A stretch of 38,848 bases of DNA from Parabacteroides sp. (GTDB lineage Bacteria; Bacteroidota; Bacteroidia; Bacteroidales; Tannerellaceae). This document shows, piece after piece, positions 33,789 through 38,722 of the stretch (position 1 is its first letter; each line of letters starts with the position of its first letter). The DNA lies in the NCBI GenBank assembly GCA_022775005.1, contig JALFJR010000109.1, positions 1 through 38,848 of the forward strand. Reading direction: 5' to 3'. The notes under the pieces are model-generated. The model saw only the letters and a list, made by a program, of their open reading frames with translations, was not told the origin of the DNA and ran no database searches. Position numbers and translations under genes: made by a program.

Positions 33789-36700
33789 TTAAAATGTAAC
33801 GTTAACACCGAATGTGTAAGTTCTCGCTCTTGGATAAGAGAAGAAGGTCATGTTCTGACCGAACTTGTTGTCACCCTGTGAAGTACCCTCAGGATCGTAA
33901 CCGTTGTAGTCCTTTGAAGTGATCAAGAACAGGTTGTTACCACTTGCATAGACACGCAAGCCAGCCAAACCAATCTTCTTAGCCACCGCAGAGTCGAAGG
34001 TATAACCCAACTGCAACATGTTCAGACGGAGGTAAGAACCGTTGGCGATCCATGAGTCATCAATCGTGGTATCCTGACCCGCATGACCTGAGTTACAGAG
34101 GTAGATAGCCTGCTGCATAGTCTCCGGGTTAGAACCGTTGTATGCGTCATAGAGGATGTTGCTCAAACCGTTGGTGATACCGAAACGGTCGTAGGTTGAG
34201 TGATAGAACTGCTGCATAGTCTCCACACCCCATACGAACTGGAAGTCCATCGTCAAATCGAAGTTCTTGTAAGAGAAGTTGTTGATCCAGCTACCGGTCC
34301 AATCAGGCATACCCTTACCGATAATCTCTTTCTTGTCCGTACGCTTCGCACGACCTACCTGGTTCAAATCGCACAAACCATTATTGTAGTCCTCCTGCGT
34401 ATAAACACCCAGACGACGATAACCGTAGAAGGCACTCATGTTCTCGCCTACACGCAAGATAGACTCAGAACCACCTACCCACCAGTTCATCTCAATGTCC
34501 TCGTCGTTCTCACCCAAGTGAAGGATCTTGTTCTTGTTGTAGTTCAAGTTCACCGTAGAGCTCCAAGAGAAGTCGTTCGTAGTCACCGGACGTGCGTTGA
34601 TCATCAAGTCCATACCAGAGTTACGCACAGAACCGATGTTCTTATATACCGTAGAGAAACCTGTTGAGTGAGGCAACGGACAGTCGAGCAACAAATCGGT
34701 TGTCTTCTTGTTATAGTAAGCGATGTCGAACGTCAACTTGTTCTGCCACAAACCAATCTCCATACCTACGTCGAACTGACCTGTCTTCTCCCACTTCAAA
34801 TCGGGGTTCGCCATGGAGCTTACATAAGAATAGGGATTACGAACGTCATTGATCAACAGCGTACCGGAAGATACACGTGCCAACGAACGATACATATCGA
34901 TCTCAGAGTTACCCGTCAAACCATAGCTGGTGTGCAGTTTCAAGTTGCTGATCGTATTGTTGTCTTTCAAGAAATCCTCCTGAGAGATGTTCCATGCCAA
35001 ACCAGCAGAGGGGAAGAACGCATACTTGTTGTTTTCACCAAACTTAGAAGAACCATCGACACGACCCGTAACGGTTGCTGAGTAACGATCCTTATAGGTG
35101 TAAGCGAAACGCAAGAAGTAAGAGTTCATTCTCCAACGGTTCCAAGAAGACTCGGGAGATGAAGGAGTCGTACCGGCAGACATGTTGTAATCCTCGAAGA
35201 AGTCATCTGAGAAGCCCTCCGTACGAGCCTTGTTCCAGTTCTGTGTACGCTCTGTCCAAGACAAACCGGCCATGGCGTTCAAACGATGATCACCGAACAC
35301 CTTGTTATAAGTCAAATAGGTCTCCTCCTGCCAGTAGAGCGTGTTCCAGTTCTGATACTCTGCCCAACCGTTCGGCATAGAGATGTTATTCAAGCCGATA
35401 GAAGAATAACCACGATAAGTCTGGTTGTGGTGGTCGATACCCAACTGGGTCTTCAGATCCAAGCCCTCAGCCAAGTGGAAAGTCAATGCCGCATTACCGA
35501 AGATCTGCGTGTTGTAGCGCATACGACGCTGCAAATCCAGGATCATCACGGGGTTAGACATACCCTCGAAACCGAGCACGTCGTTGATAGAAGAAGAGGT
35601 AGAAGTGGTATAGTTACCATTCTTATCCTTAACCGGCAACCAAGGCAACATCTCGATCATCGTACGACGTGCCTCCTGGCCACCACCATCCTCCGGTGTG
35701 TAACGGCCCCAAGTGTGGTTTACCAACACGTTCACTGCGGTTGACAACCAAGGTGTCGGATTCGCATCGTAAGTCATCTTGGCATTGATACGCTTGTTGT
35801 AGGTATTGTTCACGATACCCTGCTGATCCGTGTAGTTCAAGAAAGCACCCATTGAAGAGTTCTTGCCGGCCTGCTGGATATTCAACTGGTGGTTGTGAGA
35901 GACAGCCGTACGAGTTGCCTCATCCTGCCAGTTCGTATCATAAATAGGATTGCCATTCGTGAAATAATCCGGATCGTTGAACCAATCTGTACGGTTCAAT
36001 GACCAGTTCTTGCCCTGGTACTTATTCTCATTCTCCAAACCGATCATGAAGGCATCACACCACTCCTGTGCGGTCATTGTGTCCATCTTGCGGGCAATGT
36101 GGCTTGCGCTAACAGAACCTTGGTAGCTGATCTGTACACCCTCGCCATCCTTCTTACCACGCTTCGTCGTAACCATGATGACACCGTTCGCACCACGCGC
36201 ACCATAGATAGCAGCTGCGGAAGCATCCTTCAACACCTCCATAGACTCAATATCGTTCGGGTTCACCAAGTCGAAGTTCTCCATAACGACACCATCCACT
36301 ACATACAACGGGTTAGAAGATGCGTTGATAGTTGCCATACCACGGATCACAACACGGTTAGAATAAGCACCCGGCTGGCTGGAGTTAGAGAAGATGTTCA
36401 CACCAGACACCTTACCACGCAAGTTGTCCAATGCAGAGAAGTTCTGGTTCTTAGTCAACTCATCACCCTTAGCGACACCGATAGAACCAGTTACGTCTGA
36501 TTTACGCATCACACCATAACCAACGACTACGACCTCATCCAATGCCTGAGAGTCCTCGCTCAACGTTACGTTGATAGCCGCCTGATTGCCTACGGTGATT
36601 TCCTGAGAAAGGTAACCGATGTAAGAGAACACCAATACATCGCTGGCAGACACACCCTCGATAGTATAGTTACCGTCGAAATCGGTGATCGTACCGTTTG

Positions 36701-36926
36701 TCGTACCTTTAACAACTACGTTGGCGCCAATCACCGGCTCGCCGGTAGCGTCAACGACTACACCTGTCACCTTCTTGCCTTGCTGAACGACCATAGCGCT
36801 TGCGTCACCTGTTGTCACAGGGGCTGCCAACGCTCCGCTCACTGAGAACGCAGAAAGCAACAAACAGAACATAGAGGCTTTTGCTACTCCTTGTACGGAG
36901 AACAGCTTCGATTCATTCTTTGTCAT
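33789..36926 (-). CDS. SusC/RagA-family TonB-dependent transporter (mannoside locus)
   Basis: The protein has 1045 residues: a signal peptide (ends near GALAAP), a carboxypeptidase-regulatory-like domain (VTGVVVDATGEPVIGANVVV), the plug (ALDEVVVVGYGVMRKSDVTG) and a barrel ending in FGVNVTF. Unlike the SusC at 1761 it has no STN domain, so it should not be controlled by FecR/sigma. No hybrid two-component or other regulator gene is in the window, so its control must come from elsewhere or from the upstream repeat sites. A -7 element at 37073 gives a leader of about 140 nt. Confidence 0.96.
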   Translation of the reverse strand: MTKNESKLFSVQGVAKASMFCLLLSAFSVSGALAAPVTTGDASAMVVQQGKKVTGVVVDATGEPVIGANVVVKGTTNGTITDFDGNYTIEGVSASDVLVFSYIGYLSQEITVGNQAAINVTLSEDSQALDEVVVVGYGVMRKSDVTGSIGVAKGDELTKNQNFSALDNLRGKVSGVNIFSNSSQPGAYSNRVVIRGMATINASSNPLYVVDGVVMENFDLVNPNDIESMEVLKDASAAAIYGARGANGVIMVTTKRGKKDGEGVQISYQGSVSASHIARKMDTMTAQEWCDAFMIGLENENKYQGKNWSLNRTDWFNDPDYFTNGNPIYDTNWQDEATRTAVSHNHQLNIQQAGKNSSMGAFLNYTDQQGIVNNTYNKRINAKMTYDANPTPWLSTAVNVLVNHTWGRYTPEDGGGQEARRTMIEMLPWLPVKDKNGNYTTSTSSSINDVLGFEGMSNPVMILDLQRRMRYNTQIFGNAALTFHLAEGLDLKTQLGIDHHNQTYRGYSSIGLNNISMPNGWAEYQNWNTLYWQEETYLTYNKVFGDHRLNAMAGLSWTERTQNWNKARTEGFSDDFFEDYNMSAGTTPSSPESSWNRWRMNSYFLRFAYTYKDRYSATVTGRVDGSSKFGENNKYAFFPSAGLAWNISQEDFLKDNNTISNLKLHTSYGLTGNSEIDMYRSLARVSSGTLLINDVRNPYSYVSSMANPDLKWEKTGQFDVGMEIGLWQNKLTFDIAYYNKKTTDLLLDCPLPHSTGFSTVYKNIGSVRNSGMDLMINARPVTTNDFSWSSTVNLNYNKNKILHLGENDEDIEMNWWVGGSESILRVGENMSAFYGYRRLGVYTQEDYNNGLCDLNQVGRAKRTDKKEIIGKGMPDWTGSWINNFSYKNFDLTMDFQFVWGVETMQQFYHSTYDRFGITNGLSNILYDAYNGSNPETMQQAIYLCNSGHAGQDTTIDDSWIANGSYLRLNMLQLGYTFDSAVAKKIGLAGLRVYASGNNLFLITSKDYNGYDPEGTSQGDNKFGQNMTFFSYPRARTYTFGVNVTF

Positions 36927-37072: not shown

Positions 37073-37080
37073 CAAATGTA
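37073..37080 (-). promoter_or_regulatory. -7 promoter element of the mannoside susC
   Basis: The minus strand reads TACATTTG, an exact match to the Bacteroidetes TAnnTTTG element. Only a poor -33 match (TGTT) lies at suitable spacing. Transcription would start near 37068, leaving a leader of about 140 nt, typical for susC genes. Confidence 0.65.
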
Positions 37081-37249
37081 GTGCTTTTTCCTCAATTAAA
37101 ACATTTTTCACCAAAATAATATTATCCTTTATCCTAAAAAAGCTCATCTGCGAACTCCCTCCTCCTCCGCCAAGCCTCCCCATGTCCACAGTTACCCCCC
37201 AATTTCTCCTCAGTTAGGAAAAAATATTTCTCCAGTTGGAAAAGATTTC

Positions 37250-37335
37250 ACTCATTACTTATGACCAAGCTCGGTCATTACTTATGACTAAGCACTGCCA
37301 TTATTAATGTCGAAGGTTGGTCATAGGTAATGACC
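37250..37335. repeat. Four 17-bp dyads at exact 23-bp spacing
   Basis: Dyad units start at 37250, 37273, 37296 and 37319. The sequences are ACTCATTACTTATGACC, GGTCATTACTTATGACT, TGCCATTATTAATGTCG and GGTCATAGGTAATGACC, each followed by a 6-bp A-rich spacer (AAGCTC, AAGCAC, AAGGTT, AAAAAA). The ideal unit is GGTCAT-N5-ATGACC. It looks like an operator array or iteron-like set for a dimeric DNA-binding protein. It is located between the GNAT stop codon and the susC promoter. Confidence 0.9.
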
Positions 37336-37348
37336 AAAAAAAACGAAA

Positions 37349-37885
37349 TCAGGAAAGCACGTCATTCAAATCGAAGTAGAGAAGACGTGTTCGATCATTT
37401 TTGTCATCATCATTAAGAGGGAAAAAGCCATTTTTCAAATAAAAGGGTACAGCTTCCGCATAGGCATCCACTGTAAGAAAACGACATCCGGTCTTATTAT
37501 CATTCGTAAAATACATCTTAATAAAATGCAGTATAAAACTACCCACATGCTGTCCTCTCGCCGCTATATCCACTCCTAACCGACAAATCTTAACGGCCGG
37601 ATAACTCTTCAACCTTTTTTCATTCACAAATCGACGTTTTCTGAAACGATTAAATTCAGTCTTGGTAACAAAATCGCCCAAAGAAATTCGATCATTGGCC
37701 AAGCTGAAGTAGCCAACAACCTTACTTTGCGTTTCATCCAACACTCCATAACTCATCGCTAACAAAGCTTTCCGATAAAGCTTCGCCTCGTTATGTATAA
37801 AGTCATTCAAATCCTCATCCCCGCAATCGAATGAAGCAATTGTCTCACCCTCATTCAATCTAAATATTCGCCATTGCGGATTCAT
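37349..37885 (-). CDS. GNAT acetyltransferase, probable toxin of a toxin-antitoxin pair
   Basis: The protein has 178 residues. It shows the fold pattern of the toxin-type GNATs (TacT/AtaT group): an N-terminal strand followed by FDCGDEDLNDFIHNEAKLYR, the central VVGYFSLAND strand, the acetyl-CoA loop in ICRLGVDIAARGQHVGSFIL, and LTVDAYAEAVPFYLKNGFFP with the conserved late Tyr. Known members acetylate aminoacyl-tRNA and stop translation. The upstream 70-residue gene ends 7 bp before it, which is the usual antitoxin-first order. However, that partner does not look like the ribbon-helix-helix antitoxin normally paired with this toxin type, so a different neutralising family, or a non-toxin role, must be considered. 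Confidence 0.82.
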   Translation of the reverse strand: MNPQWRIFRLNEGETIASFDCGDEDLNDFIHNEAKLYRKALLAMSYGVLDETQSKVVGYFSLANDRISLGDFVTKTEFNRFRKRRFVNEKRLKSYPAVKICRLGVDIAARGQHVGSFILHFIKMYFTNDNKTGCRFLTVDAYAEAVPFYLKNGFFPLNDDDKNDRTRLLYFDLNDVLS

Positions 37886-38309: not shown

Positions 38310-38438
38310 ATGGATACAAAGAAAGAAGAATTAATCAAAGCGATTAAACGAGCCATGCAACACAAGGAAGAGGCACGGAAGAAAACGGCGGAAGAGTGGA
38401 AACGAGAAGGCATTAAAGGCAAAGTCATTTTAATATGA
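38310..38438 (+). CDS. Small basic helical protein, first gene of a two-gene cassette
   Basis: The protein has 42 residues (MDTKKEELIKAIKRAMQHKE, then EARKKTAEEWKREGIKGKVI), strongly charged and probably one long helix. No family was recognised. The frame is open further upstream to 38130, but that part lies over the promoter element and has no coding look. Its stop overlaps the next start by 4 bp (ATGA, 38435-38438), so the two are translationally coupled. Size, order and coupling resemble toxin-antitoxin modules; that is inference only. Confidence 0.6.
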   Translation: MDTKKEELIKAIKRAMQHKEEARKKTAEEWKREGIKGKVILI

Positions 38439-38722
38439 TTCGTTTCTCACTCACTCGTTTGCAACAACAAGCGCCCTATGAACTGATTCTATCAGGGGAT
38501 ACTGAAATCATGCTTTATATGTGTGACACAAGCGATGGACGTGAAGAGATCAGAAACAGGTTATTTCTATCATGGTTTGAAAAACATGCCGATAAAAAGC
38601 GATTTACGATTTGTAAGGCTCATGCAAATATTGAAGGACAAGGCATCTTTTTTGTTATTGTCATTGAGAACAGCAACCCAAAGCTACATGCGATTACCGC
38701 TGAATTCGAGGATGTAAATTAA
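38435..38722 (+). CDS. Uncharacterised 95-residue protein, second gene of the cassette
   Basis: It starts MIRFSLTRLQQQAPYELILS and contains FTICKAHANIEGQGIFFVIV, suggesting a small alpha/beta fold with alternating strands. I do not recognise the family. There is no signal peptide or membrane segment. The stop codon (38720-38722) touches the left edge of a 17-bp hairpin that precedes the transposase start, so the C-terminus may have been set or cut by the insertion element. Comparison with an uninterrupted homologue would settle this. Confidence 0.65.
   Translation: MIRFSLTRLQQQAPYELILSGDTEIMLYMCDTSDGREEIRNRLFLSWFEKHADKKRFTICKAHANIEGQGIFFVIVIENSNPKLHAITAEFEDVN

Follow-up and report, generated by a model that had tools for sequence, protein, structure and literature searches.

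Dispersed arrays of palindromic units at a 23-bp period in Bacteroidales genomes: candidate sites of a dimeric DNA-binding protein

The window, i.e. the whole stretch of 38,848 nucleotides that was analysed, is from a Parabacteroides genome termed G000 here. A 423-bp intergenic region between a susC gene and a GNAT acetyltransferase gene contains an array of four 17-bp dyads that start at positions 37250, 37273, 37296 and 37319, an exact period of 23 bp. The features at this locus are:

33789–36926, minus strand: SusC-like TonB-dependent receptor, a neighbour of the array
37073–37080, minus strand: susC -7-like element, TACATTTG, about 170 bp from the array; a neighbour, not thought to be part of it
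37201–37243, no strand: another dispersed repeat, of the TTTCTCC...GGAAA type, directly adjoining the array
37250–37266, no strand: dyad unit 1, ACTCATTACTTATGACC, from symmetry and comparison with the consensus
37273–37289, no strand: dyad unit 2, GGTCATTACTTATGACT, from symmetry and comparison with the consensus
37296–37312, no strand: dyad unit 3, degenerate, TGCCATTATTAATGTCG, with 6 of 8 symmetric pairs
37319–37335, no strand: dyad unit 4, GGTCATAGGTAATGACC, from symmetry and comparison with the consensus
37349–37885, minus strand: GNAT acetyltransferase, a neighbour; in a related genome, G028, a different gene adjoins the array

The GNAT stop codon is 13 bp from the end of the array. An earlier note on this DNA had placed the array about 170 bp from a susC -7 element, and the -7-like sequence listed above is found at that distance. 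The same note described the units as dyads close to GGTCAT-N5-ATGACC with A-rich hexamers between them. Units 1, 2 and 4 show 2, 1 and 0 mismatches of 12 to this consensus, respectively, but unit 3 has more than three. The hexamers (AAGCTC, AAGCAC and AAGGTT) are A-rich in part only. The motif common to the window array and the other arrays described below is better written as ATTA-S-TAAT with short symmetric arms.

The exact period is borne out by a comparison with shuffled sequences. In the 423-bp region, period 23 gives the best four-unit sum of symmetric pairs, 23, against 14–18 for the rest of the periods between 18 and 32; 500 dinucleotide shuffles of the region, allowed any of these periods, reach a maximum of 21. 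The 23-bp periodicity of the dyads exceeds chance. Tandem Repeats Finder reports period 23 over positions 37253–37303. In a CRISPR array, identical repeats alternate with unique spacers some 30 nt long; between the units of the dyad arrays the spacers are only 6–8 bp.

Two other sequences in the window may be mentioned. The adjoining TTTCTCC...GGAAA repeat (positions 37201–37243) has more short matches in G000 and in three genomes of the genus, G028, G033 and G034. Near the GNAT gene, which is paired with a 70-aa open reading frame, a DUF6169 gene overlaps a short upstream open reading frame (positions 38435–38722) in a layout that resembles a toxin-antitoxin locus.

The earlier note proposed a search of the host genome and its relatives for the dyad at 23-bp spacing. 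The query CATTANTAATG-N12-CATTANTAATG with up to three mismatches detects 31 unit pairs at exactly 23 bp in G000 and none with the reversed pattern, which served as the control. The pairs form 15 arrays on 15 contigs: ten have three units, four have four or five (the window array has four), and one, at a contig end, has two. None of the 15 is within an open reading frame of 120 aa or more, and 21 of 22 arrays in G028 are likewise outside (simple ORF caller). Together these are 37 arrays; for the 31 with both neighbours known, the neighbours are tandem in 16, divergent in eight and convergent in seven (raw counts).

Among 38 genomes of the genus, matches with three mismatches or fewer number 45 in G028, 31 in G000, 9 in G034 and 3 in G033. 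The remaining 34 genomes have 0–2, and reversed controls also give 0–2. The window array itself is kept as three units before the orthologous susC in two sister species, G028 and G034. In G028 another gene occupies the position of GNAT; in G034 the contig ends 50 bp past the array, and so the presence of GNAT beside it cannot be judged. The array at the window's own locus is therefore old, as it persists in three species. Adjoining the G034 copy, at about positions 1895–1960 of locus L025, are ACCCGGGT palindromes about 22 bp apart.

These data bear on the proposal that the array is an operator of the susC mannoside locus or is tied to the GNAT module. In favour of the former are the distance of about 170 bp by which it precedes the -7-like element and its retention before susC in G028 and G034. 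Against it, 14 other copies in the genome are beside unrelated genes, with neighbours in all orientations, and the replacement of GNAT in G028 leaves the tie to that module unsupported. The earlier note would have counted arrays unrelated to promoters against its own reading, and such is the placement of the G000 copies. As a general function of the family, a susC operator is thus rejected, and regulation of either the mannoside locus or the GNAT module is the least likely explanation of all, with very little probability. It is unlikely that the window array is a susC-specific operator, although some local effect on susC is possible.

Eight orthologous pairs of arrays from G000 and G028 were compared. 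Identity is 205/226 in the cores, 1566/1738 in the flanks, 184/222 in the arms and 94/126 in the spacers; the cores are no better conserved than the flanks, and the arms and spacers change faster. Covariation beyond that of shuffles is found at one of eight symmetric positions among 98 distinct units of the two genomes, and the central base is C or G in 89 of the 98. The arrays of G000 and G028 are degenerate. The lack of extra conservation in the cores, with a single covarying position of eight, argues that selection in this clade is not strong at present.

A wider search used the exact pattern SATTASTAATS-N12-SATTASTAATS against GTDB contigs and gave at least 118 stretches, of which 80 loci were examined. 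Many of these 80 come from a few Bacteroidales genomes. Within the order, 28 of 393 genomes show any match, many of them through arrays linked to an ATPase gene (see below). Unit pairs with no more than one mismatch were counted in 24 genomes; the top five have 103, 93, 78, 62 and 51, with controls of 0 in each of these and 0–1 across the 24.

In the array-rich genome CALUIR all 46 retrieved units read ACGATTASTAATCGT, a constancy of the core that is partly built in because the exact query fixes the core of two neighbouring units, while outer arm bases and further units are left free. The centre in CALUIR is only C or G. Its spacers carry 0.1–0.7 bits per position, with 23 distinct hexamers among 30, and the median identity of array flanks is 0.34. 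The arms differ by genome: JAFSXQ, ONDM and DGVD have mostly AAG-core-CTT, CASGED has ACG-core-CGT, and CACZJU a looser mix. Across six array-rich genomes, most spacers are distinct, and most flanks show no relation from one array to another (median identity 0.27–0.36 over 160 bp). The ends of the arrays are capped by clade-specific symmetric motifs, e.g. GGAAA-N3-TTC in CALUIR and CAGTTATATG in CASGED. Array-rich Bacteroidales genomes use genome-specific palindromes in which the dyad is nearly constant and the spacer variable.

The loci of three array-rich genomes contain no isolated perfect dyads, and all spacings up to 60 bp are either 23 or 46 bp. An array overlaps an open reading frame of at least 100 aa in nine of the 80 listed loci, two of these being ATPase-linked. 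For the 66 listed loci with both neighbours, 32 are tandem, 16 divergent and 18 convergent; these are raw counts from a set that includes ATPase-linked arrays and has three arrays of one genome in common with the G000 and G028 set.

The strongest rival explanation is a mobile origin: the arrays would be selfish intergenic repeats of the REP or MITE kind, spread by a mobility protein that recognises the dyads, with the copies decaying afterwards. Binding at the dyads would then serve as the marking of transposition sites. The patchy distribution agrees with this, since more than two matches occur only in G000, G028, G034 and G033 of the 38 genus genomes and the matches in the order are also patchy. 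Some arrays are within larger copied repeats (the G000 copies on contigs C28, C96 and C105 have 131–285 bp in common at 85%–89% identity), many G028 copies have similar flanks by eye, and the clade-specific end motifs also count in its favour.

A described mobile-type element with 23-nt repeats is a further point in its favour. Porphyromonas gingivalis belongs to the same order, Bacteroidales. BrickBuilt is an intergenic 23-nt minisatellite within a MITE of this species, which has 19 copies in strain ATCC 33277, a varying number of units, small inverted-repeat ends, a leader of up to 285 nt, a tail of up to 318 nt and IS5-type terminal inverted repeats; nucleotide matches are reported there only in P. 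gingivalis (PMC4596501). Like BrickBuilt, the dyad arrays are tandem 23-nt units in multiple intergenic copies with conserved and variable positions. As regards a leader and tail, long common flanks are lacking in the six array-rich genomes and present in some copies of G000 and G028. By description, which is the basis of the comparison, BrickBuilt may be a cousin of the dyad arrays.

REP elements are marked by an unpaired tag, GTAG or CGTC, and their spacing varies (PMC3733652). They share with the arrays the form of short, dispersed extragenic palindromes in many copies, with a genome-specific sequence, a patchy distribution and clustering. However, the spacings in the arrays of three genomes are all 23 or 46 bp, and a GTAG or CGTC tag is found within 5 bp of the dyads in 0 of 46 cases in CALUIR, 3 of 34 in JAFSXQ and at most 2 of 22 in CASGED; REP identity was therefore rejected. 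Neither BrickBuilt nor REP fits the dyad arrays fully.

Several observations weigh against a mobile origin. Most flanks and spacers in the six array-rich genomes are unrelated, whole-array copying alone would not give constant dyads with variable spacers, and three species retain the window array. No empty site with a target duplication emerged from a search with one 7-kb query: G016 and G017 have another array type at the site, G001 and G010 have neither type by eye, and the alignment is too diverged for an insertion point to be placed. On balance, mobility is a serious possibility, though less likely than the explanation favoured below.

Units with a core and a spacing like these occur in a second setting. 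At 10 of the 80 listed GTDB loci and at 12 of 27 loci of another scan, a neighbouring gene encodes an ATPase of one family by tblastn. In 18 of these 22 loci, units that keep 7 or more of the 8 core bases are spaced 23 bp apart in the 100 bp before the start of the gene; the remaining four have fragments or weaker units. A -7-like TAnnTTTG then follows the array in 10 of the 18. The ATPase-linked array loci include L129, L136, L146, L150, L152, L153, L154, L156, L162 and L163, and further L104, L108, L109, L110, L114, L115, L118, L119 and L304. Their sources span several phyla, with Termititenax, Spirochaeta, Woesearchaeota and Chlorobiota records among them. Eight members of the ATPase family have AAA_14 and DUF4143 domains, and the three tested match PADLOC PDC-S01. 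A 2026 paper places PDC-S01 fourth among the commonest defences of prokaryotes and states that most candidates of this type await validation (PMC12988326).

The arrays before the AAA_14/DUF4143 ATPase genes look like operators and may serve autoregulation. They have the same ATTANTAAT core and the same 23-bp centre spacing as the dispersed arrays, mostly with two to three units. The settings differ, in that one array abuts the promoter of one gene, whereas in array-rich genomes many arrays are beside all kinds of genes. The genomes of loci L150, L162 and L152 are not array-rich, because their unit pairs number only 2, 2 and 5. The likeness of the ATPase operator to the dispersed arrays is possibly due to chance.

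The window array has no adjacent AAA_14/DUF4143 gene, its neighbours being SusC and GNAT. By eye, no ATTA-type array is upstream at any of the six DUF4143 loci of G000. Two of these loci have other dyads: TCCCTCAWTGAGGGA at 33 bp in L248 (about positions 721–800, from a scan) and TTGCACTTASAAAGTGCAA at about 32 bp in L250 (by eye). A DUF4143-type ATPase locus, L277, has a TGCACTYT-type dyad at 33 bp at about position 1332.

Runs of three palindromes at periods of 15 to 40 were sought de novo in 182 loci (1.1 Mb), a set that is enriched for arrays; this gave 54 triplets at period 23, two at 22, two at 33 and none at other periods. A mirror-repeat control gave 0 triplets. Five of the period-22/23 cases, in four loci, have other half-sites. 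In L127 (positions 1075–1273) there is a nine-unit 23-bp array along which the palindrome shifts while remaining largely symmetric throughout.

Only two regions with exchanged half-sites were seen. In the first, which is one of these five cases, G031 has an array of the TCTACTTASTAAGTAGA type before a gene, and the orthologues of this gene in G000 and G028 have ATTA/CTTA-type arrays at that place; the proteins are 87% identical over 480 residues and look like isoleucyl-tRNA synthetase. The second is an intergenic region with an ATTA array in G000 (contig C16) and G028, and TGCCA-N6-TGGCA units at 22 bp in G016 and G017. By eye, G001 and G010 have neither array type in the region orthologous to that of C16.

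The TGCCA-N6-TGGCA type is itself dispersed. Arrays at 22 bp give 59 matches in G024, 41 in G022, 37 in G017 and 33 in G016; a match is present in 18 of the 38 genus genomes, those beyond the top four having 12 or fewer and the controls 0–1. The TGCCA-N6-TGGCA scan gives 0 matches in G000, G028 and G034, and the ATTA-type scan 0 in G024, G022, G017 and G016. Sister species are thus largely without the ATTA family and carry dispersed TGCCA arrays instead. The 21 TGCCA arrays that were read have 3–5 units each, and a called open reading frame is overlapped in four. For the 19 with both neighbours, 12 are tandem, seven convergent and none divergent, and each of these arrays is therefore at the 3′ end of at least one gene. 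In G016, a single contig of 4,811,379 bp, ten arrays are on both chromosome arms with no clear position pattern; the GC skew, from 20 sampled pieces, changes near 1.4 and 3.5 Mb.

The orientation of the TGCCA arrays would suit an action at the RNA level, in which hairpins at transcript ends terminate or stabilise mRNA. On the minus strand the outer window units do form a single long hairpin (-33.7 kcal/mol, z -4.8), and the arrays on C23, C67, C70 and C94 of G000 fold likewise. Other G000 arrays, such as those on C4, C27, C56 and C105, do not fold as one hairpin. Moreover, the T-run on the minus strand of the window precedes the hairpin, in the reverse order of an intrinsic terminator, and Rfam at gathering thresholds gives no structured-RNA match in the window. 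The symmetry of the units runs through a centre that is nearly always C or G, which fits a DNA dimer site and not a loop, and ATTA arrays also have divergent neighbours, as counted above (16 of 66 and 8 of 31). RNA hairpins are possible for some arrays, that of the window included, but it is improbable that they explain the family.

A candidate for the binding protein was sought near the arrays. Clustering of 243 flanking open reading frames gave no convincing gene for such a protein. The clusters consist of the ATPase group, small open reading frames derived from repeats, orthologues between related genomes, HU-HIG (three loci), ATPase_2/DUF234 (two loci) and a 144-aa family of the MEEKLD...CPKADTCLR type. 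The last ends just before three TGCCA arrays (L384, L385 and L387), and two of its three members are paralogues in one genome.

The array-linked ATPase is not an obvious binder. In array-rich genomes, 30 loci from a longer list yielded the upstream regions of 23 DUF4143-type genes, and no such array is present in any of these regions. G019, with 12 TGCCA and two ATTA matches, pairs a dispersed TGCCA type with an ATTA type, both of whose matches are directly before a gene of the AAA_14/DUF4143 ATPase family. Carriage by viruses was also rejected. The bare core pattern is present in 21 viral contigs, in none of which tblastn detects the ATPase; the TGCCA pattern and GATTASTAATC-N12-GATTASTAATC are matched by 0 viral contigs.

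About 15 scattered arrays in one genome, and the same layout with a different palindrome in its relatives, make these sequences look like sites of a DNA-binding protein and not like a switch of susC only. The explanation we favour, and consider somewhat better than even, is that they are clade-specific dispersed dyad arrays bound cooperatively by a dimeric DNA-binding protein with a chromosomal rather than a susC role. The earlier note had suggested cooperative sites for a dimer, and the fixed period, the dyads, the variable spacers and the mostly C or G centres are consistent with this. Points against it are the degenerate arrays of G000 and G028, the arrays within larger copied repeats, the partly built-in constancy of the core, the small number of regions with exchanged half-sites, and the search near the arrays, which gave no convincing binding protein. 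Each array would offer 2–7 palindromic units with centres 23 bp, or about 2.2 helical turns, apart; a dimer would bind each unit, and neighbouring dimers would bind cooperatively. At tens of intergenic sites the bound dimers could assemble into a short nucleoprotein filament. From lineage to lineage the half-site preference of the protein would shift and the arrays would follow, with the 22–23-bp register unaltered. The role is likely to be organisation of the chromosome or insulation between genes, rather than control of a neighbouring susC.

The operators of phage lambda are 17-bp dyads about 23–24 bp apart that are bound cooperatively by dimers. Operator sets of the lambda type form a local switch, whereas the dyad arrays are a chromosome-wide family. 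More speculatively, the arrays might belong to an undescribed chromosome-organising system, with a fast-changing dimer, 22–23-bp arrays, a wholesale exchange of half-sites (GTCATTASTAATGAC versus TGCCA-N6-TGGCA) at conserved intergenic positions, and the architecture of the PDC-S01 operator; we hold this stronger form to be rather doubtful. No description of these arrays was found in the open-access literature.

The arrays point to a DNA-binding protein that may act over whole Bacteroidales chromosomes. As sister species have different half-sites, a differential pull-down from cultured strains could reveal the protein. The operator-like arrays before PDC-S01 genes would in addition offer a way to study how this very common candidate defence family is regulated.
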